Shown here: one piece after another, positions 9 to 18,606 of the stretch
How positions within the stretch are numbered: the first letter of the stretch is position 1
How the letters are laid out: each line of letters opens with the position of its first letter
Source of the DNA: a bacterium
Lineage (GTDB): Bacteria > UBP14 > UBA6098 > JAFGQG01
Direction of reading: 5' to 3'
Assembly: GCA_016930435.1 (NCBI GenBank)
Contig: JAFGGQ010000076.1
Coordinates: 1 to 27,655 of the forward strand
Length of the DNA stretch: 27,655 nt
Made by a program: the position numbers and the translations under genes
The notes under the pieces: generated by a model
Told to the model about the DNA's origin: nothing
Database searches by the model: none
Seen by the model: only the letters and a program-made list of their open reading frames with translations

Positions 9-1037
9 TCAGTTTAATATATTATTAAGTATGAGTGGTATATCTGGCAGCCCGAGTACCATATTCAAAAAACCCTCCGATTTTACTGCCCGGGGCATTC
101 CATAAACCACTGAAGTATTTCTATCCTGGGCGATAGTAAAACCTCCGGATTGATGAATAGCGCGCATCCCTTCCACGCCATCCTTCCCCATTCCGCTGAG
201 AATTATACCCAGGGTACGGTTACCATAAAGGGTTGCAGCAGAACTCATCAGAAGATCAATGCTTGGATGAAGACCGGGACTTTGAGTACCGTTGTATTTT
301 TTTATTGTAATCAGGCTATTCCTTTTATCAAAAACTATAGAGTAGTCTCCTGGGGCAACCATTATCATTCCCCCATAAATTTCCATCCCATCTTCCGCCA
401 TACGTATATCCAGGCCAGTATCCTTTTTCAACCTTCTGGTAAAAGAGAGCAGAAATTTCTGAGGCATGTGCAGCGCAACGATCAAGTTGTTACTCCCCAA
501 CTTGGGGATATTTTTTAGAATAAATGAAATTCCCTGTGGCCCCCCTGTTGAGGCTCCCAAAATAATCATCCGGTATCCTTTGTCAGTCATGATGGGAAAT
601 TCCATGGGAGACCTTTCGGATTTGATCAGGTGGGATTTCAGGGCGTGAAGGCTTACAAGGGAAACGGCCCTGATCCTTAGGTATAGCTGTTCATCCTGTT
701 CGTGCAGGGATAAATTTGTATTCATAGTGAAAAAGTCACAGGCTCCCATATCCAGCATTTCAATCACTGCATCATAGTTTACCGGACCGGGGGGTATAAA
801 GATCAACACCGGTACTGGTCTTATCTCAAAGATTTTTTTAATGATCCGGGGATCGATTTTCCCCTCCAGCAATGGTTCCATAATAACCATATCCGGGTGA
901 TGCGTTTTGTATGAATCCAGGCATTCACTTTGGTTTGATGAGATATCCATAATTGCCAAATCTTTATATTTTGTGATCAGGTCCTTCACCTTCAGGGAAA
1001 CCTGACCGCTATTTTCAACCAAAAGAAGTTTGATCAT
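9..1037 (-). CDS. cheB: Chemotaxis protein-glutamate methylesterase CheB with a degenerate receiver domain
   Basis: CheB removes methyl groups from MCP glutamates and so resets the receptors. This 342-residue protein has the usual CheB length and layout: a receiver-like domain (about 1-125), a linker and a C-terminal methylesterase domain (about 153-342). The catalytic triad is visible: Ser163 in GASTGG, His190 in ALHMP and Asp286 in SGMGKDG. The receiver is odd. The acidic pair is Glu8-Asn9 (VEN instead of VDD), the phospho-acceptor position is Glu54 (VIMEP instead of TLDxEMP) and the conserved Lys of the 'TKP' motif aligns with Met105. Phosphorylation control is therefore probably lost or altered. 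The gene starts two bases after the upstream cheY-like gene, so it is co-transcribed. An ATG lies at positions 5-3, just past its TGA stop, and could open the next gene, but only five bases remain. Confidence 0.93.
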   Translation of the reverse strand: MIKLLLVENSGQVSLKVKDLITKYKDLAIMDISSNQSECLDSYKTHHPDMVIMEPLLEGKIDPRIIKKIFEIRPVPVLIFIPPGPVNYDAVIEMLDMGACDFFTMNTNLSLHEQDEQLYLRIRAVSLVSLHALKSHLIKSERSPMEFPIMTDKGYRMIILGASTGGPQGISFILKNIPKLGSNNLIVALHMPQKFLLSFTRRLKKDTGLDIRMAEDGMEIYGGMIMVAPGDYSIVFDKRNSLITIKKYNGTQSPGLHPSIDLLMSSAATLYGNRTLGIILSGMGKDGVEGMRAIHQSGGFTIAQDRNTSVVYGMPRAVKSEGFLNMVLGLPDIPLILNNILN

Positions 1038-1039
1038 CC

Positions 1040-1408
1040 TTAAAAGCCTTCTAAAATCTCTCTGATCTTATCGCCCACTTTTTTACAGTCAAATGGTTTA
1101 ATAATGTAGCCTTTTGCTCCGGCTTCCAGCGCTTTTTTTATCAGCAGGTTCTGGCTAATAGCGCTTACAATAAGCACATTGGCTTTGGGATTCCGCTTCA
1201 GGATCTCTCCGAGCACGATATTACCGGCGGGTTCAGGTATAATGATATCCAGAATAGTTAAATCAGGTTTCAATTCATCGAATTTCTCGATGGCTTCTGT
1301 ACCCGATTTTGCTTCCCCGCACACTTCATAACCGGCCAATTCCACTATATTCCGTAGTATAGTCCTCATAAAAAGCGCATCGTCCACGATCAATACCGTT
1401 TTTTTCAT
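1040..1408 (-). CDS. cheY: CheY-like single-domain response regulator
   Basis: This is a stand-alone receiver domain of 122 residues, the size of CheY. All residues needed for phosphotransfer are present: the acidic pair Asp9-Asp10, the phospho-acceptor Asp54 (TILDIIIPE), Ser82 and Lys104 in the IIKPF motif. It would take phosphate from the CheA kinase in the cytoplasm and act on the motor or another output. It lies 22 bases downstream of cheD and 2 bases upstream of cheB. The adjacent CheB receiver is degenerate, so this protein is the functional phospho-acceptor of this end of the operon. A few differ from motor CheY (PEPAG after the phospho-site rather than PGMDG), so the target is not certain. 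Confidence 0.92.
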   Translation of the reverse strand: MKKTVLIVDDALFMRTILRNIVELAGYEVCGEAKSGTEAIEKFDELKPDLTILDIIIPEPAGNIVLGEILKRNPKANVLIVSAISQNLLIKKALEAGAKGYIIKPFDCKKVGDKIREILEGF

Positions 1409-1430: not shown

Positions 1431-1919
1431 CTATATATAAAATATCTTGCCCAATTTCGATCTGATCTTAATGCTTCCATCAATGGAAGAAAACCAGATG
1501 GACTTGCCTGCACTGCCACCGCTACTATTCTCAGTAAGGGGAATATTGTAGTGGATTAGCAATTCCTTCACGACCTCAATGTTCTGCCGGCCTACGCTAA
1601 CGAAATTTTTGAAATGGAATAGTTCTGCGCCACCGACAATTTTGGCAACCAGTTTATCCCTGGGAATTCCCTTTTTTTCAAATATTTCCAATAATTTAAC
1701 GAAACCTGCATCGGCATACTTGGCAGGTCTCTCAGGATCGATGAGGTTATTGGGATTCACGGGCAGCATTATATGAGCCATCCCTGCAGTTCTGCTTATT
1801 GAATGATAGAGACAAAGAGCAACACATGAACCCAGGCCAATGCAGGAAAGCATATCTGGCACTCCGACCACCTTAGCCTGGCCCAAACCCACATTGATTA
1901 TCTTTTCTTCATCAGCCAT
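1431..1919 (-). CDS. cheD: Chemoreceptor glutamine deamidase CheD
   Basis: CheD deamidates selected MCP glutamines to glutamates and in several bacteria binds the CheC phosphatase. The 162-residue length fits the family. The signature GLGSCVAL contains the probable catalytic Cys32, and the catalytic His49 sits in AHIMLP; KYADAGF and KIVGGAELF are further family blocks. The third catalytic residue is a Thr in the characterised Thermotoga enzyme, and from a remembered alignment it corresponds to Cys26 here, which is unusual. The start codon lies inside the last codons of cheW (8-base overlap), which implies translational coupling. No CheC is present, but a CheX-type phosphatase is encoded at the start of the cluster. 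Confidence 0.94.
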   Translation of the reverse strand: MADEEKIINVGLGQAKVVGVPDMLSCIGLGSCVALCLYHSISRTAGMAHIMLPVNPNNLIDPERPAKYADAGFVKLLEIFEKKGIPRDKLVAKIVGGAELFHFKNFVSVGRQNIEVVKELLIHYNIPLTENSSGGSAGKSIWFSSIDGSIKIRSKLGKIFYI

Positions 1920-2370
1920 GCTGCGCCCTCATCTCCATTATATTCCGTTCAAGCAACAATTTATCAATATTCATCATGATTATATTCTGATCATCAATTT
2001 CAACAACTCCCTCCACCAGATCCAGGTCAATTTCCGGTTGTATCATGGTAGGTGTTCGGTTAATCTGGTCCATATCGGTATAAATGACAACAGGCAAAGC
2101 TTCTACAATAATACCAATATAATAATCTTCTATATTAAGAATCAATATTATAGCGGATTCTTTTATAAGTGGCCGGGGAAATCCTAACCGGATGTTAAGG
2201 TCGATCACTGGGATAATATCACCCCGTAGGTTAATGACTCCCAATATAAAAGAAGGGGTTCCGGGAACCGGAGTGATATCCGGAACTTTCATCACCTCTT
2301 TGACCTTGAGGATATCAACCCCGTATTTCTCGTTTCCCAAAGAAAATGTAACTATTCCTATCCTTGACAT
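1912..2370 (-). CDS. cheW: Chemotaxis coupling protein CheW
   Basis: CheW bridges MCP tips and the CheA kinase in the cytoplasmic signalling array. The 152-residue protein is a single CheW domain of normal length. The diagnostic block NLRGDIIPVIDL (residues 47-58) is intact, including the conserved Arg49; it is followed by the typical 'IVEALPVVI' region. The gene overlaps the end of cheR by 13 bases and the start of cheD by 8 bases, so it sits within a tightly coupled run. It is much closer to canonical CheW than the second CheW-like protein at 9040-9597. Confidence 0.95.
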   Translation of the reverse strand: MSRIGIVTFSLGNEKYGVDILKVKEVMKVPDITPVPGTPSFILGVINLRGDIIPVIDLNIRLGFPRPLIKESAIILILNIEDYYIGIIVEALPVVIYTDMDQINRTPTMIQPEIDLDLVEGVVEIDDQNIIMMNIDKLLLERNIMEMRAQHG

Positions 2371-3260
2371 ATCGGATTACCCTCAGTATAATTTGAATTT
2401 GGTATCTTCTGGTAAATACGGCTCTCCCGATCAATTGGGAGGAAAAATTTGTACAGGTTTAAAGGAAGCATTTCGGTTTTACCGGAGACATAAAATCCAT
2501 AATTATAAAGTGATTGATAGAATCGATTATACATCTTGTACTGCAGTCCCTTATCAAAATAGATGCTGACATTGCGGCATACAATAATATCAAACTGGCC
2601 AAAGCTTTTATCGTAAACAATATTGTGTCTGATAAAGCGGATCGAATCGGTTAATTCTGTTTTGATTTGGTACTTACCTTCGGTTATTCGTGAAAAGTAG
2701 CGTTCTTTGAGTTCTTCAGAGATGTTCGTCAAGGCGGATTCATTATAGATGCCTATTTGGGCGGACTTAAGGGCATCCTGATCAATATCGGTAGCTATGA
2801 TAGTCAGGGGTAAATTCCGGAGTTTTTCCGATTCGGCCATTAGGATTGCCAGCGAGTAAGCTTCTTCTCCTGTGGAGCACCCTGCTGTCCATATACGTAT
2901 CGGCTTGTCGCATTGATCTCTATCCGCTATGATCCGGGGGAAAATTATCTTCCGTATCTTATCAAATACTTCGGGATTACGCATGAACTCAGAGACGTTG
3001 ATGGTCAAATTACTGATGAGTTTCGACCGCTCTTCCGGATCAGCCTGGATTAAACCCATATACTGCGGAAAAGAACTGATACCCATCCGATTCATCCGGC
3101 CTACAAGTCTCCGTCTGAGGAAGGGCAACTTATAGCTTGTAAAATCAAGGCAATATCTCAGCTTGAGGAAGCGTGTAAGTTCTCCCACGCTTTCCATAGA
3201 AATGTCGGTGGTCTTAATAAAGTTTGGTTTGGTGGGCAATTCAGGATTTTCTTTTATCAT
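2358..3260 (-). CDS. cheR: Chemotaxis protein methyltransferase CheR
   Basis: CheR methylates MCP glutamates using S-adenosylmethionine. The 300-residue protein has an N-terminal helical domain (about 20-95, with the RRRLVGRM basic stretch that is common in CheR) followed by the methyltransferase domain. Visible motifs are NVSEFMRNPEVF (88-99), the SAM-binding GCSTGEEAYS (127-136), ATDID (156-160) and CRNVSIYF (228-235). The start is placed at 3260 because its ATG overlaps the MCP stop codon as ATGA, a normal coupled arrangement. The neighbouring MCP has no NWETF-type C-terminal docking pentapeptide, so methylation probably does not use tethering. Confidence 0.95.
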   Translation of the reverse strand: MIKENPELPTKPNFIKTTDISMESVGELTRFLKLRYCLDFTSYKLPFLRRRLVGRMNRMGISSFPQYMGLIQADPEERSKLISNLTINVSEFMRNPEVFDKIRKIIFPRIIADRDQCDKPIRIWTAGCSTGEEAYSLAILMAESEKLRNLPLTIIATDIDQDALKSAQIGIYNESALTNISEELKERYFSRITEGKYQIKTELTDSIRFIRHNIVYDKSFGQFDIIVCRNVSIYFDKGLQYKMYNRFYQSLYNYGFYVSGKTEMLPLNLYKFFLPIDRESRIYQKIPNSNYTEGNPICQG

Positions 3261-4747
3261 ACGTTAAACTTCCGGACCAGCTCTCTTAGGTGTAAAGCAA
3301 GTGAATACAATTCCTGGGTAGAGGCAGCCATATCCTCCATCGCGGTAGTTATCTCTTCGGTTGAAGCGCTGGTCTCCTCGGTGGCACTCGCGGCTTCCTC
3401 AGCCATGGAAGCGATCTCGTGGATATTTTTTTCCATCTGTTTGGTATTTTCAGCAATAATCTCCTTTATACTCCTGGAAACATTCGAGATCACTTCTTTA
3501 CCCTCCTGCACTGCCGATGAGCTCTGGCTCATCTTATTAACCGCTTCCTCGATCTCCAGTACGATTTCCCGGATAATCGTTCCTATTTTATCAGCGGCTT
3601 CTGCGGAATGATCAGCCAGTTTCTTGACCTCTTCAGCAACCACATTAAAACCCCTGCCTGCTTCTCCGGCACGGGCCGCTTCAATAGAGGCGTTGAGGGC
3701 CAGCAGGTTGGTCTGATCGGTGATCTTGCTGATCACCGCTACAAACTCATGGATCTTTTCTGAATGCTTAACCAAACGCTTGATTACTTCTACAGCGCTG
3801 TCAACACTCTCATTGATGTGATTGATAACCTTGACGGCATCCTGGGCGCTCATAGCTACATTGACAACATCGGTAGCCATTTTTTCCAGTACCTGGGAGG
3901 CTTCCTCCACCCTTAAAGCGGTATTTGAAGCACCGGAAGAGATTTCCTGTATGGTAGATGATACCTCCTGGGTGGTGGTGTTTATATCCTGTGAGTTTTC
4001 GGATAGCTTTTTAGCAGAATTGGAAACCTTGTCAGCAGAATTCAGGATCTTGAACACCAGATCCCTCAAGGTCCTGATCATCTCATTGAAGGCAACAGCC
4101 AATTTCCCGATCTCATCCTCGCTTTTGACCGGGATCTCGGTTGTCCAATCACCCGATTGTTGAGAGATATTTTCTACTCTCTTAACCAGCAAATTAATCG
4201 GCTGAGTAATTGCGTTGCTGATCAACCAGCCCAACAATACTCCTCCAAGAAGAATTATGATCCCTACTGCTAAGATCAGCCTGAAGTATTCACCTGCCTG
4301 GGAATTGATCCGTTTCAGGGAAAATCCAAGGATAAGGGTTCCTAAACGGCTATCGCCGGATTTGACTGTTATATTTACATTGAGGTGGTTACGATAAATG
4401 TTCACACCGCTCTGATAGATGATTTCACCATCTTCAAATTCATATTGATATGAGGCATATTTATTATCGTTGATATCCAGCAGGAGTATATATGAGAGGT
4501 CGGTATCCAGTTTAAGTCCCTCGAAGATATCCAGAACCATGGTAGTATCCTGGAAATCCAATGCCGGAGCGATATTATAAGCAGTCATTTCGGCGATTGA
4601 GGTAGCCTTGTTAAGGAGTGACTTCATTGCCTGGCTCTTGTATTTTATGGGAAAGAAAATCACGATAAAGGCGGTAATAACCAGGATAACCGCAATAAAG
4701 CTGGAGATGATCTTAGTCTTAATATTCAGTCTATCCAGAAATTTCAT
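3257..4747 (-). CDS. Methyl-accepting chemotaxis protein with CHASE8-like periplasmic domain
   Basis: This is an inner-membrane receptor of 496 residues. In order: transmembrane helix about 13-34, periplasmic region about 35-154, second helix about 155-177, HAMP about 178-232 and a long cytoplasmic signalling coiled coil with the conserved tip, in which QTNLLALNASIEAARAGE begins at 345. The periplasmic part resembles the CHASE8 sensor of YfiN-type cyclases: AEMTAYNIAPALDFQD (52-67), then TDLSYILLLDINDNKYASY. This assignment is by eye. Several EAxxx pairs in the coiled coil could be methylation sites, but the C terminus (RELVRKFNV) has no CheR-tether pentapeptide. The ATG overlaps the YfiR gene stop by four bases, which ties the receptor to that periplasmic protein as a probable sensor pair. 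Confidence 0.95.
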   Translation of the reverse strand: MKFLDRLNIKTKIISSFIAVILVITAFIVIFFPIKYKSQAMKSLLNKATSIAEMTAYNIAPALDFQDTTMVLDIFEGLKLDTDLSYILLLDINDNKYASYQYEFEDGEIIYQSGVNIYRNHLNVNITVKSGDSRLGTLILGFSLKRINSQAGEYFRLILAVGIIILLGGVLLGWLISNAITQPINLLVKRVENISQQSGDWTTEIPVKSEDEIGKLAVAFNEMIRTLRDLVFKILNSADKVSNSAKKLSENSQDINTTTQEVSSTIQEISSGASNTALRVEEASQVLEKMATDVVNVAMSAQDAVKVINHINESVDSAVEVIKRLVKHSEKIHEFVAVISKITDQTNLLALNASIEAARAGEAGRGFNVVAEEVKKLADHSAEAADKIGTIIREIVLEIEEAVNKMSQSSSAVQEGKEVISNVSRSIKEIIAENTKQMEKNIHEIASMAEEAASATEETSASTEEITTAMEDMAASTQELYSLALHLRELVRKFNV

Positions 4748-5325
4748 GGCTCTACCTCCCTGACAACCTGAGCTAACTTTAGGAGGTTGGCGCTGAAGTT
4801 TGCCCCTTCGGCTTTGGAGCGGTCCAGGTTGATAAGGATCTTGGTTTTACCCTCTTCGACACCGAGTCCCACCGCGATACCCACATCGACATATTCGGGA
4901 GTACCGGTAAGACTTAAAATCTGGTTTTTAGCGCTAATCCGATTAATCAAGGGAAGATGCTGATATAACCCTGAAGTCACGTAGATCAGGTTTACCTTTT
5001 TTGTCCTGAGCGCTTCTTCAAGATTTGACACTCCAGCTATGCTTACGCAGTTTACGGGTAAATTCAGTATCCGTTTACTGCGCAAGGATTCAAAACTTGC
5101 CAGGAATTCGTTATGCTGGCTCTGTGATTCAGGGTCTTCAGGGAGGTAAATGACCCCGATAGTCAGACCTTGTTGTCCCCTTTCCTCGATATTACGATCG
5201 TATTTAAGGATCTTCATCAATGTTGGTACCTGCATATCCATAGGTACCAGCATCTCTTCGTTCTCCAGGGGAAGAGCTGCGGATATCAAGACCATTGCGG
5301 TCAGTATTGATAACCACAGTTTCAT
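4744..5325 (-). CDS. YfiR/DUF4154-family periplasmic protein
   Basis: This 193-residue protein has an N-terminal signal peptide (about 1-18) and then a single YfiR/DUF4154-type domain. Family hallmarks are LMKILKYDRN near residues 36-45, a central 'LIYVTSG' strand and a C-terminal block running from LINLDRSKAEG to NLLKLAQVV (about 164-188). In Pseudomonas, YfiR is a periplasmic repressor that binds the CHASE8 region of the YfiN diguanylate cyclase. Here the next gene, overlapping by four bases, is an MCP with a CHASE8-like sensor region, so a YfiR-MCP regulatory pair is a reasonable inference. The ATG is preceded by a GAGGAG ribosome-binding site. It lies 159 bases after the substrate-binding protein gene, a gap with no clear promoter or strong terminator. 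Confidence 0.85.
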   Translation of the reverse strand: MKLWLSILTAMVLISAALPLENEEMLVPMDMQVPTLMKILKYDRNIEERGQQGLTIGVIYLPEDPESQSQHNEFLASFESLRSKRILNLPVNCVSIAGVSNLEEALRTKKVNLIYVTSGLYQHLPLINRISAKNQILSLTGTPEYVDVGIAVGLGVEEGKTKILINLDRSKAEGANFSANLLKLAQVVREVEP

Positions 5326-5484
5326 TTATTTCTCCTCAGCATTTTCCATCCTGCGTGTGCTTTTAACAAATAAATGGACACTATGCAAAGCATACTATTT
5401 TCTGAGTTTCTGTTTAGTAACCTTTGAATGGTACCCATTTTCTTGTTCCTCTTATTAAACTTCAAGTTTTCCATTTATGCTATT

Positions 5485-6840
5485 TTAAGGTTCTATAAAA
5501 TGATCATGCACCATCCTGCCGCCCTGTATCCGCCACACTTCGTAGCGGGAGGTAATTTCCCCGGTCTGGTCGAAATCAACCGAACCGGATGCGCCTTCGT
5601 AATTAATGTTTAATGAATCTGTCTGAATTACTTCCAGCCCGTACTGGTATTGATCGAAATTAACAACTGTTCCGGGTGGTCTTGAGATAGACAACATGGA
5701 ATCCTTGATGGCATCGGGATTCAGGCTTCCGGCTTTTTCGATGGCCAGTGCCAGGAGCATCATAGCGTCATACCAATTCTCTAATCCGCGGTGTTCCCTG
5801 GGGTCAATATTGTATTCGGCCTCAAAAGCATCTTTGAAGCGTTCATAATTTGTTCCTCCCTGGAAAGGAGATAGACCGATAGCTCCTTCAAGATGAGAAG
5901 CCCCTACATTTTCGATGAGTTCAATAGCTTTCAGGGCATCGGAGAACATCCACTGAGTATTGTAACCGGTTGCAATCCAGTCCCGCAGGAAAGTAGCTCC
6001 GGTTTGAGGGTAAGCTATCAGGACTATCAGTTTGGGAACTGCGAAGAAGGCGGAATCGGCTACGTAGTATGTATCAGCAACAAAGGTGGATTCATCCTGC
6101 CAGGTTGTATCGATATGGTGGATCTGGGTAGTGTCGGTTCGATGATTGAGCAGTGAGTGAATCTGATTTATGTAGGAGTTCTGTCCGCTATTCAAAGGGA
6201 TTGTTTCAAGGATATGTCCGCCGCGGTAGCGGTAGCGGTCAACAAAACGGGCGGTGAGGTTCGAGCCGTAGGAATTGTTTATATATACTACTGAAGCAGT
6301 ATCGTAACCAAGATTATGGGCTTTGATAGCCATGACTTCACCCTGATAATAATCCGAGGGTATGGTCCGGAAAAAGTTTCCGGTAACGTCTTGGTTTATC
6401 AGACTTGGGTCGGTTGAGGTACCTGACAGCTGGATCACATTATTATCATTGGTAACGTTCAGAATGGCTTCGGATACCTCGCTGGCTTCGGCACCCAGTA
6501 CGGCAACTACGCTATAATCTTCGATGATCTCCCGGGCTATAGCTTCGGCGTAATCGGGATCGGTTTTTGTGTCTCTGAATACCAACTGGGTTTCCTGCCC
6601 CAAAATACCCCCTGCTGCATTAACCTGCTTTAAAGCAAGCTCTACCGCTTTCTTCTCAAAAGAGCCATAAGCGCCACAATCCCCGGAATACGGCAGAAAC
6701 AATCCAATAGTGAGATAATCATTATAATCCCGGGGTTCAACAACCGAGTCTTTACCGCAGCCCCAAAATACAATCAGACATAATAATAGCGATAAAAATA
6801 GCGTTATTATGCCGAAATGCGGCTTCTTTTTAAATACCAT
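5485..6840 (-). CDS. ABC-type branched-chain amino-acid-like substrate-binding lipoprotein
   Basis: This is a periplasmic-binding-protein type I (Peripla_BP_6, LivJ-like) protein of 451 residues. A basic n-region (KKK), a hydrophobic stretch and a lipobox ending Phe-Trp-Gly-Cys28 mark it as a lipoprotein; the aromatic -2 residue is uncommon. The mature part opens with LTIGLFLPYSGDCGAYG and carries ALKQVNAAGGILGQ and VVAVLGAEASEVSEAI, all typical of the family. I chose the ATG at 6840, which has GAGG six bases upstream. A TTG at 6891 would add 17 residues before the signal peptide and sits 13 bases from its nearest Shine-Dalgarno. An insertion rich in Asp, Thr and Tyr (near DTTWQDESTFVADTYY) interrupts the usual fold. 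No ABC permease or ATPase lies nearby, so it probably serves the chemoreceptor or receptor neighbours rather than a transporter. Confidence 0.88.
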   Translation of the reverse strand: MVFKKKPHFGIITLFLSLLLCLIVFWGCGKDSVVEPRDYNDYLTIGLFLPYSGDCGAYGSFEKKAVELALKQVNAAGGILGQETQLVFRDTKTDPDYAEAIAREIIEDYSVVAVLGAEASEVSEAILNVTNDNNVIQLSGTSTDPSLINQDVTGNFFRTIPSDYYQGEVMAIKAHNLGYDTASVVYINNSYGSNLTARFVDRYRYRGGHILETIPLNSGQNSYINQIHSLLNHRTDTTQIHHIDTTWQDESTFVADTYYVADSAFFAVPKLIVLIAYPQTGATFLRDWIATGYNTQWMFSDALKAIELIENVGASHLEGAIGLSPFQGGTNYERFKDAFEAEYNIDPREHRGLENWYDAMMLLALAIEKAGSLNPDAIKDSMLSISRPPGTVVNFDQYQYGLEVIQTDSLNINYEGASGSVDFDQTGEITSRYEVWRIQGGRMVHDHFIEP

Positions 6841-6898
6841 ATCATGCCTCGCTAATACTAATTTTAAGTTGTCAATATGCTTAATATTCAATAATGTT

Positions 6899-9007
6899 CT
6901 AAAACTCCTTGGTTAATTTAAGAACCAGGCTTCGGGGTGACCCGGGTATATCGATTCCTGAATAACCCGGTTCTACATACTCAACATCGGTAAAGTTTTT
7001 AATGGACAATGAAAGGATTGTTTCACCCAGCGGTATCCAGTTAATACCCACCGTGGAAATGGTAAAATTGAATACCTGATAGGCCGGCACCTCATAGAAA
7101 AGCCCTCCATTAAGGGCTACATTCTGCTGGGAGGAGTACCTTGAGCCTACATAACGGTGTTCCAGATTAAGGTTCAGGAAAAGTTGCGGAACAGCATAGT
7201 TGATAACCGTATTGCTGGTTACGTTAGGATATTGGAAGGTGCGTTTCTGGTCTGCGTAGAGATTGTCATCTGCATCTTCGGGGAGGTCCAGTTTAAAGTG
7301 GGACTGCTGATAGGCGAAATTCCAATAGCAGGTAAAGTTATTAAAGAACCATCGGATTTCCGCCTCTGCGCCGTATGCCCGTATATTGTTCATATTGTAG
7401 GATTTGGTATATGCTCCATCGTGAATAAACTGAATCTTTTTATCGACCATATTATAGAATGCGTTGGTGGATACCATGAGTTCCTGAGTATTTACAGGGC
7501 TGAACTCAAAATCAAAGGTCTTGGTTTTCTCGGGTTCAAGTTCCGGATTTCCGATCACTCCTCCGGGATACATGGGTGTAGTGAAGAGCTGCATGACGGA
7601 GGGGACCTTAAAGGAGGTACCGTAGAGCAGTTTCCAGTACCCCCTGTCATAAAATTCATGGACAATTCCCATCCGCGTATTGAAGAAATCCCCATAAACA
7701 TCATGATTATTGTAGATCAACCCTTCTGTCAAACTAAGATTATCCGTTGGTTTGTATATAACCTGAGTATATAGGCCAAAGCACTTAAAGGTAGTATCCC
7801 CGTTTTCCCCGAACATAGCAATTGAATCACCAGCGTTGTAGTTCTCGTAATCCTGTTTGTAAACTGACCAGAAAGTGGGCTTTCGGTGCTTGTCGATTAT
7901 ATAGTCAGACCCCAGTGAAAGGCTGATCTCCCTTGTGGGATAATACTCTAACTGACAAGCTATTTCATTACTTTGGTAATTGAAGTCCCGTTTTATCCAG
8001 AACAGCTCATTCTCGATCTCCAGGTGGTCATCCTCGGCAGGTTTCCCTTCAGAAATACCATACTTAAGATAAAAAGAAAGGGTTTTCTGTATCTCGTTCT
8101 GATATTTAACAAAGGCGTTATAGTTGGACAGAGCCACCTGGTTCTGATGTGTCAGTATTCCCCAATCCTGAAATTCTGCATGATCGTTAAAGTTCAGGTA
8201 ATTCCCGTTAAGAATCAATTTTCCCAGTTTTTCATGATTAAATGCCAGTCTGCCATAGAAACTGGTGGGTTCGTTGATATCATTTCGGCTTTCTATGAAC
8301 TTGTAGTTATTGTAGAGGGGGGAAATGGATGGGACTCTCAATCCTGATTCATCAAGATAGTAGGATGAGGCTGTAAACATAAAATCGACAAACTGGATGT
8401 TTTTCCCCAGGACTATGTCGCCGCCATAAGATGAATTCGCGCCGTTTTGGGTTCCGGTGCTTATGGAAAGAATTCCGTTATCAACTTTTTCGCCGGATTT
8501 GGTGATGATATTTACCACTCCCAGATATGAATTTGGGCCGTAGAGGGTTGAGCCCGGTCCCAGCACCACTTCTATTCTTTCAACCGCGGTGATAGGTATC
8601 AACTCATATCCCAGGAAATTGGTATTATTGGATTTAAAAACCACCGGCTGATCGTCGATCAGCACTCTTACCACTTGGTTCCAGCCCCGCAATCCGCCAC
8701 TAACTCCGCGGACCCCGATATTATAGTTCAGATGGTCATTGATCAAATAAAGACCAGGTACGCTCTGCAAGGCCTCGCCCACTGAACCATAGCCACGTTG
8801 GGCAATTTCCCTGGCAGTTATTACTCTGACTATAGAAGGAGCTTCCGCAATCTTTAATGGGCGTTTTGTAGCAGTAACCACCTTCACCTGGAGCAATTCT
8901 TCAAGAGACATATTCTCGAAATCCCTTGTGTCCTGCGCTAAAAGGGGTAAAATCAAAAAACCGGTTAATATCAACAACAAAACCAAAAATATATTTGACC
9001 CTCTCAT
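6899..9007 (-). CDS. TonB-dependent outer-membrane receptor
   Basis: The protein has 702 residues, a normal size for the family. It has a signal peptide ending near LPLLAQ (about 25), a conserved start MSLEELLQVKVVTATKR, a plug domain with QSVPGLYL, 'RGVSGGLRGWNQVVRVLIDDQPV', VERIEVVLGPGS and NSYLGVVNIITK, and a 22-strand-type barrel ending in KNFTDVEYVEPGYSG and a terminal Phe. It takes up or senses an unknown ligand using TonB energy; no substrate can be named. The start has AGGAGG five bases upstream. It sits inside the chemotaxis run, 32 bases after a CheW gene and 8 bases before the TTG alternative of the binding protein. In other bacteria, receptors with this SLEELLxV opening often accompany YfiR-family genes, which matches the arrangement here. 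Confidence 0.93.
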   Translation of the reverse strand: MRGSNIFLVLLLILTGFLILPLLAQDTRDFENMSLEELLQVKVVTATKRPLKIAEAPSIVRVITAREIAQRGYGSVGEALQSVPGLYLINDHLNYNIGVRGVSGGLRGWNQVVRVLIDDQPVVFKSNNTNFLGYELIPITAVERIEVVLGPGSTLYGPNSYLGVVNIITKSGEKVDNGILSISTGTQNGANSSYGGDIVLGKNIQFVDFMFTASSYYLDESGLRVPSISPLYNNYKFIESRNDINEPTSFYGRLAFNHEKLGKLILNGNYLNFNDHAEFQDWGILTHQNQVALSNYNAFVKYQNEIQKTLSFYLKYGISEGKPAEDDHLEIENELFWIKRDFNYQSNEIACQLEYYPTREISLSLGSDYIIDKHRKPTFWSVYKQDYENYNAGDSIAMFGENGDTTFKCFGLYTQVIYKPTDNLSLTEGLIYNNHDVYGDFFNTRMGIVHEFYDRGYWKLLYGTSFKVPSVMQLFTTPMYPGGVIGNPELEPEKTKTFDFEFSPVNTQELMVSTNAFYNMVDKKIQFIHDGAYTKSYNMNNIRAYGAEAEIRWFFNNFTCYWNFAYQQSHFKLDLPEDADDNLYADQKRTFQYPNVTSNTVINYAVPQLFLNLNLEHRYVGSRYSSQQNVALNGGLFYEVPAYQVFNFTISTVGINWIPLGETILSLSIKNFTDVEYVEPGYSGIDIPGSPRSLVLKLTKEF

Positions 9008-9039
9008 TAATCCCTCCTAAATAACGATATGTAAATCAA

Positions 9040-9597
9040 CTATTTTCCCTTCAATTCCTGGTATTCTTTTACGGTTTGGCCGATATAATCCAGTTCTTCC
9101 GAAGACCACAAATGCTCCAGGTCAATGATTAGAATCAAGGGCTGATAAGGTTCCCGGATACAAAATCCCTTGATATAATTATACTTAATATGATGGCTAA
9201 TAAAAACGGGGAGCGGTGAGATTTTTTCCGAACCCATTTTCATAATCTGGTGACCCCGGTCCACCAGTAATCCTAATTGCTGCTCATTAATATTGACAAT
9301 AAGTAACCTTTTATCATGAAGCTTTTCCCGGGAATGTTTGATCCCGAACTTAACAGCCAGGTTCATAATAGGGATGATCTGTCCCCGGAAATTATATAAT
9401 CCCATAAGTATAGGCCACTTTTGAGGTATCCTAATCAGGCGCTTGATAAAGATCAATTCCTTCAGCCTCATCAAGCGTATCGCAAAGTTATAATCCCCAA
9501 TTCGGAAAACCAGAAATTTTTCCAGGATTTGTCCGGTTTCAGCCGGCTTGTCCTTTGCAGGTTCCCGAGCAATTATATCTTTGGAAAATTCACCCAT
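9040..9597 (-). CDS. CheW-like coupling protein with N-terminal extension
   Basis: This 185-residue protein has a CheW domain beginning near residue 25 (EKFLVFRIGDYNFAI). Its diagnostic block is NFRGQIIPIMNL (69-80), with the conserved Arg71, and it is followed by 'LLVDRGHQIMKM'. The first 25 residues are polar and unlike CheW. The C-terminal tail (SSEELDYIGQTVKEYQELKGK) is also longer than in a minimal CheW. It starts at an ATG that overlaps the stop codon of the upstream regulator gene (TAATG), so the two are translationally coupled. It is clearly distinct from the CheW at 1912-2370. It may couple a different receptor class or act with the adjacent CheY-like protein, as in CheV-type pairs that are normally fused. 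Confidence 0.88.
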   Translation of the reverse strand: MGEFSKDIIAREPAKDKPAETGQILEKFLVFRIGDYNFAIRLMRLKELIFIKRLIRIPQKWPILMGLYNFRGQIIPIMNLAVKFGIKHSREKLHDKRLLIVNINEQQLGLLVDRGHQIMKMGSEKISPLPVFISHHIKYNYIKGFCIREPYQPLILIIDLEHLWSSEELDYIGQTVKEYQELKGK

Positions 9598-9959
9598 TAC
9601 TTCATTATTTGCTCAATAGCATTCCTGATTACTTTTTCTTCGAATGGTTTGGAGATAACGGTTATCGCCCCTTTTTCCAATTCTTCGTAAATTTTGTCCT
9701 GGGCGCCTCCGACTCCGCTAACTACAATAATCTTGGCAGATGGATCATGTTCAAATATCTGCTTGGTGCATTCAGAGCCACTAACTCCGGGCATAACCAT
9801 ATCCATTATTACCAGGTCTGGTTCAAGTTCCCGGTAAAGCCTGTAACCTGCCTCTCCATCGTTGGCAATGCCTACGATCTCAACTTCCTCTATCCTGGAT
9901 AGAACCTCTTTTAAGCTGAAAACTGCCAACCTGGAATCGTCCACGATTAAAACTTTCAT
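9597..9959 (-). CDS. CheY-like response regulator
   Basis: This is a single receiver domain of 120 residues. The phosphorylation residues are complete: Asp7-Asp8, phospho-acceptor Asp53 (VIMDMVMPGVSG), Ser81 and Lys104 in SKPF. It is cytoplasmic and presumably a CheA target. It is separate in sequence from the other regulator at 1040-1408, so the cluster encodes two CheY-like proteins. It overlaps the following CheW-like gene by one base. The previous gene is the CheX-type phosphatase fusion, which makes this regulator a likely substrate of that phosphatase. No output domain is present. Confidence 0.92.
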   Translation of the reverse strand: MKVLIVDDSRLAVFSLKEVLSRIEEVEIVGIANDGEAGYRLYRELEPDLVIMDMVMPGVSGSECTKQIFEHDPSAKIIVVSGVGGAQDKIYEELEKGAITVISKPFEEKVIRNAIEQIMK

Positions 9960-9991
9960 CGCCTTTCCTTGTCCTAAAGACTTTCTTCTGC

Positions 9992-10012
9992 AAAAAAAAA
10001 AACGATCCGTTA
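9992..10012 (-). terminator. Short hairpin followed by a T11 run (weak terminator or attenuator)
   Basis: On the minus strand the stop codon of the CheX-type gene runs into AACG-GAT-CGTT, a four-base-pair stem with a three-base loop, and then an uninterrupted T tract (11 A on the plus strand, 9992-10002). A stem this short would terminate only partly, so it may lower expression of the downstream chemotaxis genes relative to the phosphatase. It could also be just a homopolymer run. Confidence 0.25.
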
Positions 10013-10876
10013 TCTATCCTTGATAATTCCGACTATAAAATCCCCTTCAGGAGTAACCGAGGGAAAGATCAGAGCGATTTTATTCTCGGGAATTTCAATA
10101 ATCTGCTTTTCTTCATTCCAGATACAGAGCGGAGGGGATATCTCTAGTTTTTTTCCGTATTCCAGCAGTTGGGCTTTCACGTTACCGGCAATTATATTGG
10201 CGAATTCGGAAATAGCGTCAAAAACGGTTTCGAGGTCAAACTCCATCTCCGGAATATTGTATAGTGACCGGGAGATATTAAAAGCAATATTCTGAGGAAA
10301 ATTTAGGAAATATTCAAATCCGCTATCACCAATAAATTTAACCGAGGCAAACGCGAAGCTATTATTGAGCTGTTTGGTTTGGGTTTCTAAATTACCTATC
10401 TTGGAAAGGACATTCCCCGCCCGGCGCAGGATCTTAACCGTAATATCAAGAATAGCTATTAATTCATCATGTTCGGGGTTATCATCTGGTACAATATCCT
10501 GGACGGATTTCACTACTTCCTGTTCTTTGTGGAATCTTTCCAGTTCCCTTTCCAGGGCTTCTTTGCTCATGAAACCCTTGTGAACGACCGCCTCTCCCAG
10601 ATAAATATGGTTATTCCTTTGAATAGTAAGGAGTTCATCCAACTGTTTCTCGTTTAGATAGCCCATTTTAACCGCCAGCAATCCAAAGAGCATATCCTCA
10701 TCACGCTGAGCGGAATTGATGTCTTCTACCTTTTTATTATCCAGATACCCCTTTTGGCAGGCAATCTCACCCAATCGCTTTAATTTTGTATTTTGAAAGC
10801 GCAGCGCTTCTAACAATTCGTCTTTGGTTATAAGGCAATTTTCCAACAGATATTGCCCAAAGAACTTCGGCCTCAT
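10010..10876 (-). CDS. MshEN-like repeat domain fused to CheX-type CheY-phosphate phosphatase
   Basis: The protein has 288 residues. The first part (about 4-117) holds four copies of a motif of the form xLGxxLxxxGxLxxxxLxxxLxxQ, described as a separate repeat feature. This is the MshEN pattern, which binds cyclic-di-GMP in type II secretion and pilus ATPases. The C-terminal part (about 137-288) matches the CheX/CheC phosphatase fold, including FLNFPQNIAFNISRS and DAISEFANIIAGNVK. The E-x-x-N catalytic pair is Glu224 and Asn227. It would dephosphorylate CheY-like proteins, with the N-terminal domain as a possible input. I chose the ATG at 10876, which has GGAGG five bases upstream; a TTG at 10930 adds 18 residues that fit no motif. 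It is the first gene of the cluster, 50 bases before a CheY-like gene. Confidence 0.85.
   Translation of the reverse strand: MRPKFFGQYLLENCLITKDELLEALRFQNTKLKRLGEIACQKGYLDNKKVEDINSAQRDEDMLFGLLAVKMGYLNEKQLDELLTIQRNNHIYLGEAVVHKGFMSKEALERELERFHKEQEVVKSVQDIVPDDNPEHDELIAILDITVKILRRAGNVLSKIGNLETQTKQLNNSFAFASVKFIGDSGFEYFLNFPQNIAFNISRSLYNIPEMEFDLETVFDAISEFANIIAGNVKAQLLEYGKKLEISPPLCIWNEEKQIIEIPENKIALIFPSVTPEGDFIVGIIKDR
10532..10861 (-). repeat. Four 29-residue MshEN-type motif repeats within the CheX fusion protein
   Basis: The motif glycines fall at residues 7, 36, 65 and 94, an exact 29-residue period (24-residue motif plus 5-residue spacer, as in MshEN). The second glycine is at 43, 72 and 101 (Asn13 in the first copy), and the closing Gln is at 28, 57 and 86. 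The leading Arg of the consensus RLG is kept only in the second copy (Arg34), so nucleotide binding may be partial. Two tandem MshEN domains are the simplest reading. Confidence 0.75.
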
Positions 10877-11594: not shown

Positions 11595-12134
11595 TTATGT
11601 CAATAATTTTAGTAATTCCAGGCGATATTTAGATGTAATTAACCGGTAAGAAGGGTTGTAATGTTGCCGGAATTCATCCGAATGATGAAGAGGTATAAAA
11701 CCCTTTTCCCCGACGATCTGATTGATCCGTATCGTACTCTCTGAAGAAAATTGAAGTTCTTTTTGATCCACCAGATAATTGAAGAACTGCCACCAGGACC
11801 TCAGTTTTTGTTCATCCCCGGAAAATTCATCAGCGCTGGATTTTATATATTTCCAGATCATCTCCGGATCAGCTTTATAGTATTTACAGGTGTCCAGGTG
11901 GATCCGGGATATCTCCTGGTCCGGATGGATTTGTTCAAATATTATCCCTTCCCGTGGTTCGATCTTCATATATTCATTTTGAAAACATTCATAAGCGGAG
12001 GGTTGCAGGATCAGGTGTTTACCGCCCATTGTCGCCTGGTAAAGCATTTTGTATATATCTACAACTTTCATTCGGGGGTATTTTTTAAGATGATCCCTTA
12101 TCAGGATCAGTAAGTTGTTGTATTTATAATTCAT
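11595..12134 (-). CDS. Conserved hypothetical protein with HHS motif
   Basis: This is a 179-residue, soluble-looking protein without signal peptide or membrane segment. It has a recognisable but unnamed conserved pattern: KVVDIYKMLYQATMGGKHL near the N terminus, ISRIHLDTCKYYKADPE in the middle, a WWQFFNYL stretch, and GFIPLHHSDEFRQHYNPSYR near the C terminus. I have seen this combination in hypothetical proteins of other bacteria but know no function. Conserved His, Tyr and Arg residues hint at an enzyme or ligand-binding protein; that is inference. I chose the ATG at 12134, which has GGGAG seven bases upstream. A further upstream ATG at 12161 lacks a clear ribosome-binding site. The gene lies 78 bases downstream of ruvB on the same strand. 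Confidence 0.7.
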   Translation of the reverse strand: MNYKYNNLLILIRDHLKKYPRMKVVDIYKMLYQATMGGKHLILQPSAYECFQNEYMKIEPREGIIFEQIHPDQEISRIHLDTCKYYKADPEMIWKYIKSSADEFSGDEQKLRSWWQFFNYLVDQKELQFSSESTIRINQIVGEKGFIPLHHSDEFRQHYNPSYRLITSKYRLELLKLLT

Positions 12135-12212
12135 GAATATTCTCCCTGAATCAAATTCCATTCACCAAGCAACAATCATCGGGTACGTTATATGAATGTG
12201 GCTTTAATAGTA

Positions 12213-14031: not shown

Positions 14032-15366
14032 ATGTCTAAAAATATTACTGAAACAGGTATTCGAGCTTTGGTCATTTTTATCTTGGTCATGCTCATGAGG
14101 GTTAAAGGTGAGGGTTTTGAAGGTTTTTCTTCGGGAGATTCAACCCTGAGCCTGGAGGATTGTATCCAGCGCGCTTTAGAGTATAGTCCATCCATAGAGA
14201 GTAAAATTTTCGATTTGGAATCCTCTGAAGCTCGTAAAAGAGGGGAATATTCTTCATTCATGCCCAAGGTAACCACTGGCCTGGGTTGGCGCAGATATGA
14301 CAAGGAAATGCTAAGCATTACGGCTGATGAGATAGTTCGTTCCAGCGACTCTTATTCCGCTTCCCTGTCTGCTACCCAGAGCCTTTTTACCGGAGGGTAT
14401 CAGTGGTTTAGTATGAAATACCAGCAAGAATCCTACCGTCAGGAGGTATTAAGCTTAAAGCAGGAGAAGTCGGACATCGTTTATGCTGTAAAATCAACTT
14501 ATTATGCCATAATTGCGGCGCAACGCCTGGTTATATTATCAAAATTAGGGGTAAAAAGGGCAGAGGACCAATTGAATCTGGTAACCCAAAAGTACGAATT
14601 GGGTTCAGCTTCCCAATCGGATGTAGCCAAAACCAGGGTATTGATGGCGGAAGAAAAGCTCCGGCTGATTCAAGCCCAGAACGGTGAACGCGAGTATCGG
14701 GAGGACCTCAACGAGCTTTTAAACTACCCCCTCGATCTTCAATTCACTCTGGCCAGTGATTCCCTGATATCCCGGGAACTTAAACCCATGACCGATTACA
14801 TTGAGCTGGCTTTGGATAGTTCGCTTGATATAAGCAGCATGGAAAATGCCCTTAACCTTTATAAGATAGCAAAAACCATGGTTAATTCTGCTTTCTATCC
14901 TGCTCTATCCTTATCGTTGAACTATTCCTGGAATAATATTGAGCTTCCGGACAACTGGGAGGAATGGCGGGACGCTGATTCATGGACCCTCTCCATGAAT
15001 CTTTCCTGGACCTTGTTTAATGGGCTGTCACGGTATTATGACCACCGGGAATCCAGTTTAAACTTCTATAAGGGTGAATTACAGTTAGATCAAACGATAA
15101 AGAACATTGTCAAGCAGGTACGGCAAACTTATGGGAAGGTCATGGAAAGCCAGCAGCGGATCGAATTATCCGAAGCACGGTTGGAGGATGCCAGGTTAAC
15201 CTACGAGATAACTTCCGAAAAATATAAGCTGGGCACAGCGACCCTGCTGGAGCTATTGGATTCTGAAGTATCGCTTACCAGCAGTGAAAACGAACATATT
15301 CAAGCTTTGTACGAGTATAAAATCAACATTGCCCTGTTGGACAAATTATGCGGTGAAATAAGGTGA
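14032..15366 (+). CDS. TolC-family outer-membrane efflux protein
   Basis: This is a 444-residue outer-membrane channel subunit. The N-terminal hydrophobic segment (about 10-24) is followed by the first OEP repeat, STLSLEDCIQRALEYSPSIES. The long helical regions then include YAVKSTYYAIIAAQRLV and LNLVTQKYELGSASQSDV. The second repeat has YDHRESSLNFYKGELQLDQT and 'SEKYKLGTATLLELLDSEVSL', the paired 'KYxLGxAxxxE/D' signature of the family. It would form the exit duct of a MacAB-like pump. The ATG has GAGG eight bases upstream. It is the first gene of a five-gene plus-strand operon, 51 bases before the membrane fusion protein. The signal peptide is unusually polar before the hydrophobic core, so the exact cleavage site is unclear. 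Confidence 0.92.
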   Translation: MSKNITETGIRALVIFILVMLMRVKGEGFEGFSSGDSTLSLEDCIQRALEYSPSIESKIFDLESSEARKRGEYSSFMPKVTTGLGWRRYDKEMLSITADEIVRSSDSYSASLSATQSLFTGGYQWFSMKYQQESYRQEVLSLKQEKSDIVYAVKSTYYAIIAAQRLVILSKLGVKRAEDQLNLVTQKYELGSASQSDVAKTRVLMAEEKLRLIQAQNGEREYREDLNELLNYPLDLQFTLASDSLISRELKPMTDYIELALDSSLDISSMENALNLYKIAKTMVNSAFYPALSLSLNYSWNNIELPDNWEEWRDADSWTLSMNLSWTLFNGLSRYYDHRESSLNFYKGELQLDQTIKNIVKQVRQTYGKVMESQQRIELSEARLEDARLTYEITSEKYKLGTATLLELLDSEVSLTSSENEHIQALYEYKINIALLDKLCGEIR

Positions 15367-15417
15367 TCTTGACCAACTTACTTTAACCCGGTTGGTATTA
15401 GAAATCAGGAGGCTGTT

Positions 15418-16710
15418 TTGAAAAAAATAGTAATAATTGGCATAGTTATAGTTTTTGCAATTTTCATATTTGCATTAGTAGCTTTCAAATTTCACGCCAG
15501 CAAGCAGGCTATTCCGGTACGCGTTGAGCAGGTTGGGCGAATGGACCTGGAGTCATCGGTAACCGGATTTGGCCGTGTACAGCCTACCCGGGAGGTAGAT
15601 ATTTCCGCGAAGGTAACCGGCGAGATCGTCAAGCTTTACGTTCAGGAGGGTGATACCGTTCAGCGTGGCGATACTCTTTTGCAGGTTGACCGTTCAAAGT
15701 ATGCTGCCATGCTGGAACAAGCCAAGGCTAATTTACGTTCATCCAATTCGCTGGTAATTCAGGCGGAGGCCAATCTTAAGCAATCGCGCGATAATCTGGA
15801 GCGTTTACGTGAGCTTTATGGAAAGGAATTTATTTCGGACCAGCAATTTGAGGATGGGCAAACCCAGGTGGAGATACTGGAGGCCCAGCTTCAATCCGCC
15901 AAGGATGGTGTTTTACGTGCCAAGGGGGCGGTGGACGAGGCTCAGGAGGCCTATGATGAAACCATTATCAAAGCGCCCCAGGGGGGTATCGTTACGGGGC
16001 TTTCCGCAGAAGAGGGTGAATATGTAATCGTGGGCACCATGAATATCCCGGGCAGCGTGATCATGAGCATTTCCCAGTTGAACGAAATGGAAGCCGAGAT
16101 TGAAGTAGATGAAACCGATGTTGTTAAGGTAGAAACCGGACAGGAGGCGCGGCTGGAAATCGATGCCTTCCCGGATACCCTCTTCCGTGGAACAGTTATT
16201 CAGATCAGCAATAAGGCCAGGATTAGCGGATCAAGCACGCAGGGGGTTGTGGCAAGCTTTGATGTCAAACTCTCCATTGAAGATTATGTTCCCGGACTCA
16301 GACCCGGAATGTCTATCAGCGCCGATATTATTACCCAACGCCGGGATTCGGTTATTGCAGTTCCCATACAAGCAGTGGTGCCTGAAATAAAAGAGAGTCG
16401 AATTGCGGACAAATCTACTGACTCCGACTCAACGGAGGATAGACTTTCGGATGAACCCGGTGGACAAAAAATGAAAGATCGCAGGGAAATAGTGTTCATT
16501 CTAAAAGAAAATATTGCCCGAGCCCAACCAGTGCGAACCGGGATTTCAGATGACCGCTATATTGAGATATTAGAGGGATTGGAAGGGGACGAAACCATCG
16601 TTGTGGGAAGCTATAAGGTACTCCGTGAGTTAAGGGATGGTGATAAAGTCAAAGTATCAAAACCAGGTTGGGAAAACTACCGTAATGAATCACCTGATAG
16701 AACTGAGTAA
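15418..16710 (+). CDS. Membrane fusion (periplasmic adaptor) protein, MacA/HlyD type
   Basis: This 430-residue adaptor would connect the inner-membrane ABC exporter with the TolC-like channel. It has an N-terminal membrane anchor (about 3-23), a barrel-sandwich half (TGFGRVQPTREVDISAKVTG, GDTVQRGDTLLQVDRS), a coiled-coil hairpin (about 95-185), the second half of the barrel (ETIIKAPQGGIVTGLSAEEG), a beta-barrel and a membrane-proximal domain. A hydrophilic acidic insert with many Asp and Ser (about 325-350) sits in the last domain. The start is a TTG with AGGAGG five bases upstream; no nearby ATG fits. It overlaps the ATPase gene by 26 bases. Confidence 0.93.
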   Translation: MKKIVIIGIVIVFAIFIFALVAFKFHASKQAIPVRVEQVGRMDLESSVTGFGRVQPTREVDISAKVTGEIVKLYVQEGDTVQRGDTLLQVDRSKYAAMLEQAKANLRSSNSLVIQAEANLKQSRDNLERLRELYGKEFISDQQFEDGQTQVEILEAQLQSAKDGVLRAKGAVDEAQEAYDETIIKAPQGGIVTGLSAEEGEYVIVGTMNIPGSVIMSISQLNEMEAEIEVDETDVVKVETGQEARLEIDAFPDTLFRGTVIQISNKARISGSSTQGVVASFDVKLSIEDYVPGLRPGMSISADIITQRRDSVIAVPIQAVVPEIKESRIADKSTDSDSTEDRLSDEPGGQKMKDRREIVFILKENIARAQPVRTGISDDRYIEILEGLEGDETIVVGSYKVLRELRDGDKVKVSKPGWENYRNESPDRTE

Positions 16711-17371
16711 AATAAACAGGATCTACAAGCTGGGAGAGTTGAGTGTTCACGCTCTTCGTGATTTTGATTTCACTATTGATGAAGGTGAATATTTGGCCAT
16801 TATGGGACCTTCCGGCTCCGGAAAATCCACCCTCCTGAACATCCTGGGGTTGTTGGACCAGCCAACTTCCGGAGACTATTTTTTCAATGGTCAAAATGTA
16901 ACTACATTCACGGAATCCAGACTTGCCAATTTCCGAAATCAGCAGGTAGGATTTATATTTCAAACCTTTAACCTGTTGCCCCGTACCAATGCCCTTCACA
17001 ACGTGGAACTGCCCTTGATCTATGGCCGGAAACCGCTTTCCCTGAGAAAAAAGCTCGCCCGTGAAGCCCTGGATGCGGTCGGATTAAGTGACCGTCTGCA
17101 CCATAAACCCAATGAACTTTCGGGTGGGCAGCGCCAGAGGGTTGCAATCGCAAGAGCCATCGTTAATGAACCCCAGATAATACTGGCTGATGAACCCACC
17201 GGGAACCTGGACAGCAAAACCGGTGCCGAAATTATGGAGATAATAGATAACATCCATCACAAAGGGAACACTGTTGTTCTTATAACTCATGAGGAATATA
17301 TCGCCGAACATGCCAACCGGATCGTAACCCTCCTTGACGGAAGGATCAAATCCGACACGAGGCTTAAATAA
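16685..17371 (+). CDS. ABC transporter ATPase, MacB/LolD type
   Basis: This is a 228-residue nucleotide-binding subunit. It has Walker A GPSGSGKST (41-49), the Q-loop region GFIFQTFNLLPR, the signature LSGGQRQRVAIARA, Walker B IILADEPTGNLD and the switch His in LITHEEY. All catalytic residues are present. The family normally starts just before the ELxxIxRxYKxG strand, so I use the ATG at 16685. An ATG at 16637 in the same frame would add 16 residues and deepen the overlap with the adaptor gene to 74 bases. It powers mechanotransmission rather than direct transport in this family. It is separated from the first permease by three bases. Confidence 0.93.
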   Translation: MNHLIELSKINRIYKLGELSVHALRDFDFTIDEGEYLAIMGPSGSGKSTLLNILGLLDQPTSGDYFFNGQNVTTFTESRLANFRNQQVGFIFQTFNLLPRTNALHNVELPLIYGRKPLSLRKKLAREALDAVGLSDRLHHKPNELSGGQRQRVAIARAIVNEPQIILADEPTGNLDSKTGAEIMEIIDNIHHKGNTVVLITHEEYIAEHANRIVTLLDGRIKSDTRLK

Positions 17372-17374
17372 AAA

Positions 17375-18595: not shown

Positions 18596-18606
18596 TAGGA
18601 TTTACA

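Follow-up and report, generated by a model that had tools for sequence, protein, structure and literature searches.

Related systems and the layout of the operon

The Pil-Chp pathway, with its chemoreceptor PilJ, is a chemosensory pathway that acts on pili and has one dedicated chemoreceptor. Here we describe a chemotaxis (che) operon of contig JAFGGQ010000076.1 (assembly GCA_016930435.1; GTDB lineage UBP14; UBA6098; JAFGQG01), in which genes for a TonB-dependent outer-membrane receptor, a LivJ-type substrate-binding lipoprotein and the periplasmic protein YfiR stand together with the gene for a methyl-accepting chemotaxis protein (MCP), the single MCP match in the genome. The window, i.e. the whole stretch of DNA that was analyzed, is the entire contig of 27,655 bases and belongs to a genome assembly of 2.85 Mb that is 90% complete (labeled G000). 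On the basis of sequence comparison we propose, with moderate confidence, that this sole chemoreceptor may receive its signal across the envelope via a YfiBNR-like relay, made up of the TonB receptor, YfiR and the MCP, with pilus activity as the likely output. A chemosensory pathway on pili, here as a predicted output, and a single dedicated chemoreceptor are what the system would share with Pil-Chp. Unlike Pil-Chp, the window operon has CheX and CheD (its relatives also CheC), it contains no pil genes, and its MCP is encoded together with an outer-membrane receptor and YfiR.

The YfiBNR system of Pseudomonas and E. coli (PMC3375315, PMC4655355) resembles the window locus in that a DUF4154 protein adjoins a membrane protein with a CHASE8/PAS-like domain, a HAMP domain and the phenylalanine of the AAVVF motif, and in that an outer-membrane partner is encoded alongside. 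It differs in its output domain, which is GGDEF in YfiBNR and MCPsignal here, and in the nature of the partners: the window has a TonB receptor and a LivJ-type lipoprotein, and none of the operon proteins carries the OmpA-like domain of YfiB. In addition, the window YfiR has only a single cysteine and thus no disulphides equivalent to those of its YfiBNR counterpart. That YfiR can be paired with an MCP was reported before, as Malone et al. in 2012 described in silico, in one sentence of their Discussion, YfiR-linked PAS/HAMP proteins with histidine kinase, GGDEF/EAL and MCP outputs (PMC3375315); no TonB receptor is mentioned there. The combination of a TonB receptor, a YfiR-like protein and a CHASE8 sensor is found in the NCBIfam trio TOL_0244, TOL_0243 and YfiR-associated kinase (NF053590-NF053592) and relates to OmpS (PMC6304351, PMC9788540), although the sensor of the trio is a histidine kinase and that of the window an MCP. 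MshEN with CheX has also been listed already (PMC5013675), but unlike there, we find four 24-residue motifs with 5-residue spacers, and CheY is fused on in several relatives. What is already known therefore comprises the YfiR-MCP pairing (2012), the catalogued TonB-YfiR-kinase trios and MshEN-CheX. Relative to the 2012 description, the window locus contributes a TonB receptor, a lipoprotein and an entire che operon, and its MCP is the only one found in the genome, in a class that lacks FliG. In the open-access literature we found no description of a che operon that combines a TonB receptor, YfiR and an MCP.

The operon consists of 12 genes, all on the minus strand, that form one run from position 10876 down to 9 in the order cheX, cheY, cheW, TonB receptor, lipoprotein, yfiR, mcp, cheR, cheW, cheD, cheY and cheB, and every named gene is identified by Pfam. 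The intergenic gaps range from -13 to +58 nt, with yfiR and mcp overlapping by 4 nt. The sole exception is a gap of 159 nt between the lipoprotein gene and yfiR, in which a consensus scan returned no minus-strand terminator-like site. The earlier note had placed the receptor, the lipoprotein and YfiR between two sets of che genes on one strand with short gaps, and apart from the 159-nt gap this is borne out. It had also considered the layout unusual; both the YfiR-linked MCP outputs (PMC3375315) and the NCBIfam TonB-YfiR-kinase families are precedents.

The YfiR-MCP pair and its conservation

YfiR (4744..5325, minus strand) matches Pfam DUF4154 with 44.3 bits (cut-off 24.9). Its AlphaFold2 model (mean predicted local distance difference test score, pLDDT, 90) matches the P. 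aeruginosa YfiR structures with template modeling scores of 0.60/0.76 at around 20% sequence identity. In the fold search with this model some substrate-binding proteins ranked slightly better by E-value than P. aeruginosa YfiR, and a direct sequence search of the PDB with the YfiR profile returned no YfiR, while the fold search did find one. In the alignment, from which locus L044 was left out as unrelated, residues N166, G174, L182 and A185 are common to the window YfiR and E. coli YfiR.

The MCP (3257..4747, minus strand) has, according to Pfam, a CHASE8/YfiN-type periplasmic domain followed by HAMP and MCPsignal domains. The CHASE8 match of the periplasmic part reaches 26.8 bits, just below the Pfam cut-off of 27. 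A comparison by hhalign between the profile of this part and the CHASE8 region of the kinases from TonB-YfiR-kinase loci gave an E-value of 3e-19, and the NCBIfam model of the YfiR-associated kinase matches the MCP sensor with an E-value of 4e-22, below its cut-off. Phe65 and Asp67 are invariant among the MCPs of this class, three YfiR-linked MCPs of other lineages, the MCP of genome G359 and E. coli YfiN. Phe65 aligns with the AAVVF motif, which Malone et al. mapped in YfiN as the proposed YfiR site (PMC3375315). Given this partner domain on the MCP, and the absence of the lipoprotein from one relative (see below), YfiR is a likelier direct link to the MCP than the lipoprotein.

When 386 genomes were searched with the sensor domain, the seven best matches (four of them from the class) were all MCPs with an adjoining YfiR, which is not an independent count because the query alignment already included every one of them. 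Two MCPs outside the query, in G359 and G066, also have YfiR beside them. Two generalizations were rejected: that all CHASE8-type MCPs have a YfiR, as seven were without, and that only this class has YfiR within a che operon, as G359 has YfiR inside a complete che operon that has no TonB gene. In G359, a single-contig genome of another lineage (locus L161), YfiR sits between CheW and the CHASE8 MCP; a FapA-like protein is encoded upstream, and downstream follow CheX and a CheZ-like protein.

Within the class, genome-wide statements rest on family profile searches of 17 genomes. An MCP over the family cut-off was found in 4 of these, exactly one in each, and the same 4 genomes contain a full YfiR gene beside the MCP as well as the receptor. 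Twelve genomes have neither MCP nor YfiR, and G016 (59% complete) has only a YfiR fragment, in a TonB-lipoprotein-YfiR arrangement at a contig end (Fisher p = 0.002, uncorrected for shared ancestry). In G008 and G010 the cassette lies on whole contigs in the order CheX(-CheY fusion), CheW, TonB, lipoprotein, YfiR, MCP, CheR, CheW, CheD, CheY and CheA. In G011 the order matches apart from the lipoprotein, and the locus is divided over two contigs with the break inside the MCP. The relatives come from two other families, so that the order is seen in three families of the class, and the aligned proteins, TonB through the second CheY, share around 33-61% identity with those of the window. The upstream neighbors in the window (RuvA, RuvB and two hypothetical proteins) were not found beside the cassette in the relatives. 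Considering that the order recurs in G008, G010 and G011 with unshared flanks, the run is more than a chance arrangement.

The earlier note had pointed to related genomes as the place to check its proposal, an envelope-spanning route from the outer membrane via the binding protein to the MCP. The receptor, YfiR and MCP are indeed together in every class genome with a complete MCP. The binding protein accompanies them in G008 and G010, stands beside the receptor and YfiR in the G016 fragment and is missing in G011. The route thus keeps its receptor/YfiR/MCP grouping and loses the lipoprotein as an obligatory relay, with YfiR as the likelier direct link.

Some variation concerns the other che genes. 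CheX and CheY form a single fused protein in G010, in G011 and in one of the copies of G008; in G008 a tandem pair of MshEN-CheX-like genes was observed (L011:100-2380), the second of which is fused to a receiver domain. CheB is present in the window, and no CheB_methylest match was obtained in G008, G010 and G011, though CheR and CheD are present there. Either adaptation proceeds without the esterase in these relatives or the gene is lost in assembly gaps.

Outer-membrane receptor, output and rival explanations

The receptor (6899..9007, minus strand; Pfam Plug, 3.9e-17) has a CirA/OmpS-like plug. The plug is preceded by a TonB-box-like motif, VVTA/VVSA among the receptors and VVTA in the window, and the protein matches the Cir structure 2hdf (1.8e-32). 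TonB is present in 17/17 class genomes, with TonB_C matches in G000. The match to the NCBIfam TOL_0244 family has an E-value of 4e-28, below the cut-off. For TOL_0244, TOL_0243 and the YfiR-associated kinase the scores of the window proteins against the cut-offs are 98/645, 26.8/125 and 78.9/194 bits, respectively, so that they are homologous to the named families and fall outside them. A scan of 84,980 species returned 42 loci with receptor relatives. Beyond the four class members, the receptor adjoins YfiR in around a dozen loci, mostly together with a CHASE8-HAMP histidine kinase. In the receptor tree the five MCP-linked receptors form one group (support 91/92), with the kinase-linked L033 and the lipoprotein-linked L035 and L036 as neighbors. 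The tree, the root of which is not fixed, fits one change of output in the ancestor of the class. For TOL_0244 a similarity of 40% has been reported to the Alcanivorax dieselolei protein OmpS (PMC6304351), which was described as an alkane sensor and trigger of chemotaxis (PMC9788540). By analogy a sensing role for the receptor family is plausible, and this says nothing about the ligand here. As alternative outer-membrane partners, a 591-aa protein encoded upstream of yfiR in G064 and a 288-aa open reading frame in G208 were weighed; neither has a Pfam match and the latter resembles a shadow frame, so neither is put forward as a partner.

The lipoprotein (5485..6840, minus strand; Pfam Peripla_BP_6, 3.3e-40) likely starts at the ATG at 6840, and its signal peptide ends in ...GC. 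PDB matches were found, and only its N-lobe aligns well with LivJ/LivK-type proteins. The earlier note took the lack of an ABC (ATP-binding cassette) permease or ATPase as favoring sensing over transport. Pfam indeed identifies neither among the operon proteins, and the LivHM-type permease (BPD_transp_2, PF02653) was absent from 16/17 class genomes, including the entire G000 assembly, while a control search was positive in 12/14 genomes. As the permease family is missing, sensing is favored over ABC import by the lipoprotein. In two Bacteroidota-labeled metagenome-assembled genomes (MAGs) a receptor-lipoprotein pair occurs with no YfiR or che genes nearby (L035:1401-4727 and L036:4376-7702). 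The lipoproteins of two of the class loci (L011:4894-6168 and L012:4088-5416) have SDDTDD and AEDDSDD, respectively, after the lipobox cysteine, reminiscent of the surface-export signals of Bacteroidota. Surface exposure, if true, would make the lipoprotein and the TonB receptor a SusCD-like pair.

Clues to the output come from CheX (10010..10876, minus strand; Pfam CheX, 1.1e-11), a CheX-type phosphatase of phosphorylated CheY with an N-terminal double MshEN-like domain, encoded by the first gene of the run. The best-fitting start codon, an ATG at 10876, is preceded by a GGAGG-like site. The N-terminal region contains four 24-residue repeats with 5-residue spacers, at residues 5, 34, 63 and 92. 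It matches the NCBIfam cyclic di-GMP (c-di-GMP) motif model NF053729 in two stretches with 76 bits (cut-off 38), whereas Pfam showed no MshEN even at E = 5. The AlphaFold2 model matches CheX structures and the MshE/c-di-GMP structure 5htl (root mean square deviation 0.9 over 57 columns), the N-terminal region also matches PilF domains by structure, and the phosphatase motif D-x3-E-x2-N is invariant. FliG (PF01706) was absent from 17/17 class genomes, which excludes a flagellar output as far as the assemblies reach, and PilT (TIGR01420) was over cut-off in all 17. Pili are the likelier output, given the lack of FliG, the presence of PilT throughout and the pilus-ATPase-type MshEN repeats of CheX. 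Type IV pilus activity with an input by c-di-GMP is thus the likely output as predicted from these sequences.

In the proposed relay the state of the receptor, or the ligand that it admits, would alter the availability of periplasmic YfiR, which would dock on the MCP at its CHASE8 domain. The receptor would thereby take the place of YfiB, and the MCP that of YfiN. Either the binding or the release of YfiR could set the activity of CheA via HAMP and the signaling hairpin, and in turn that of CheY. CheR, CheD and, in the window, CheB would adapt the receptor, CheX would dephosphorylate CheY, and type IV pilus activity would be the output, with c-di-GMP as an additional input.

Other arrangements of the same genes can be envisaged. 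Binding-protein-dependent MCPs are well established (PstS-CtpL, MalE-Tar), and in L035 and L036 the TonB receptor and the lipoprotein occur without YfiR and hence form a unit of their own. Accordingly, the receptor might import a ligand and the loaded lipoprotein might dock on the MCP, with YfiR as a separate modulator that responds to the envelope or redox state. We deem this unlikely, however, as the sensor domain of the MCP belongs to the YfiR-partner family and not to a known binding-protein-docking family, YfiR-MCP pairs recur without an adjoining lipoprotein, and G011 has the TonB receptor, YfiR and the MCP but no lipoprotein. More improbable still is that the genes for the receptor and the lipoprotein serve nutrient uptake, merely share a promoter with the che genes and have no part in signaling. 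Operons can combine genes for different jobs, and the 159-nt gap between the lipoprotein gene and yfiR would suit such a division. Yet the order is kept at protein identities of around 40%, a LivHM-type permease is missing from nearly all class genomes, receptor homologs adjoin YfiR and sensor kinases in other phyla, and NCBIfam has named families for this very trio.

The same input relay could also serve an alternative cellular function, controlling c-di-GMP, exopolysaccharide or development instead of pili. The lack of FliG in the class and the MshEN repeats of CheX, which point to c-di-GMP, agree with this, as does the occurrence of PilT in 12 genomes without che genes, by which pili are not singled out. 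On the other hand, the CheYs are single-domain or fused to CheX, as in motility systems, Pfam identified neither a diguanylate cyclase nor any other gene for an alternative output in the operon, and PilT is universal in the class; on balance we consider a non-pilus output rather unlikely. The more specific proposal, in which the sole MCP would be gated by the TonB receptor via YfiR and the pathway would act on type IV pili with a c-di-GMP input at MshEN-CheX, is put forward only tentatively.

Several observations weigh against the YfiBNR-like relay with pilus output as proposed. At least seven weaker CHASE8-type MCPs have no YfiR within 1.5 kb, and in G256 and G359 YfiR adjoins a CHASE8-type MCP with no TonB receptor nearby, so that YfiR-MCP pairs do not, as a rule, require the receptor. 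The lipoprotein gene was not found in G011, which keeps the other three, and it is therefore an accessory. On the output side, PilT occurs alike in class genomes with and without che genes, and the leading arginine (RLG) is present in only one of the four MshEN motifs of CheX, which makes c-di-GMP binding uncertain. CheA was not found in the assembly of the window genome. Finally, the co-occurrence of MCP and YfiR is weaker than its p-value because of shared ancestry, and the evidence base consists of MAG data from four to five genomes of one class.

Remaining genes of the window and significance

The other genes of the run, all on the minus strand, encode a CheY-like response regulator (9597..9959; Pfam Response_reg, 1.2e-23) and CheW (9040..9597; CheW, 8.6e-24) ahead of the receptor gene. 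Behind mcp follow the CheR methyltransferase (2358..3260; CheR, 2.6e-51), a second CheW (1912..2370; CheW, 2.5e-32), CheD (1431..1919; CheD, 2.8e-21), a second CheY (1040..1408; Response_reg, 2.4e-24) and CheB (9..1037; CheB_methylest, 1.4e-48). The contig ends 8 bases beyond cheB, where CheA is expected. As cheA follows cheY in the relatives (L011, L012 and L014) and no CheA was found in the assembly, the contig end probably truncates the operon. Taken as a whole it probably encodes a complete, self-contained chemosensory system.

Elsewhere in the window, a TolC-HlyD-MacB-type efflux operon (14032-19836) is divergent from ruvAB and comprises an outer membrane efflux protein, a fusion protein, an ABC ATPase and two MacB-like permeases. 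At 20024-21958 lies the gene for an LVIVD-repeat protein whose C-terminal sorting domain is of the Por secretion type; the open frame that comes next extends over at least 1,887 aa and runs off the contig. Neither Pfam nor NCBIfam gave a match for the 188-aa protein encoded at 11595-12161.

The usual view is that chemoreceptors perceive a ligand only once it has arrived in the periplasm or the cytoplasm. A TonB receptor that is coupled to an MCP via YfiR would let the cell steer by binding at its outer surface. If true, such reading at the outer membrane could allow a response to molecules whose size or hydrophobicity keeps them out of the periplasm, and considering OmpS, hydrocarbons are one candidate class of ligands. 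With one chemoreceptor, one operon, one YfiR and one such receptor, these genomes could allow cleaner tests of cause and effect than bacteria that possess MCPs by the dozen. The system would thus provide a testable model of how signals from the outer membrane travel via YfiR-like proteins to inner-membrane sensors that differ in their outputs.

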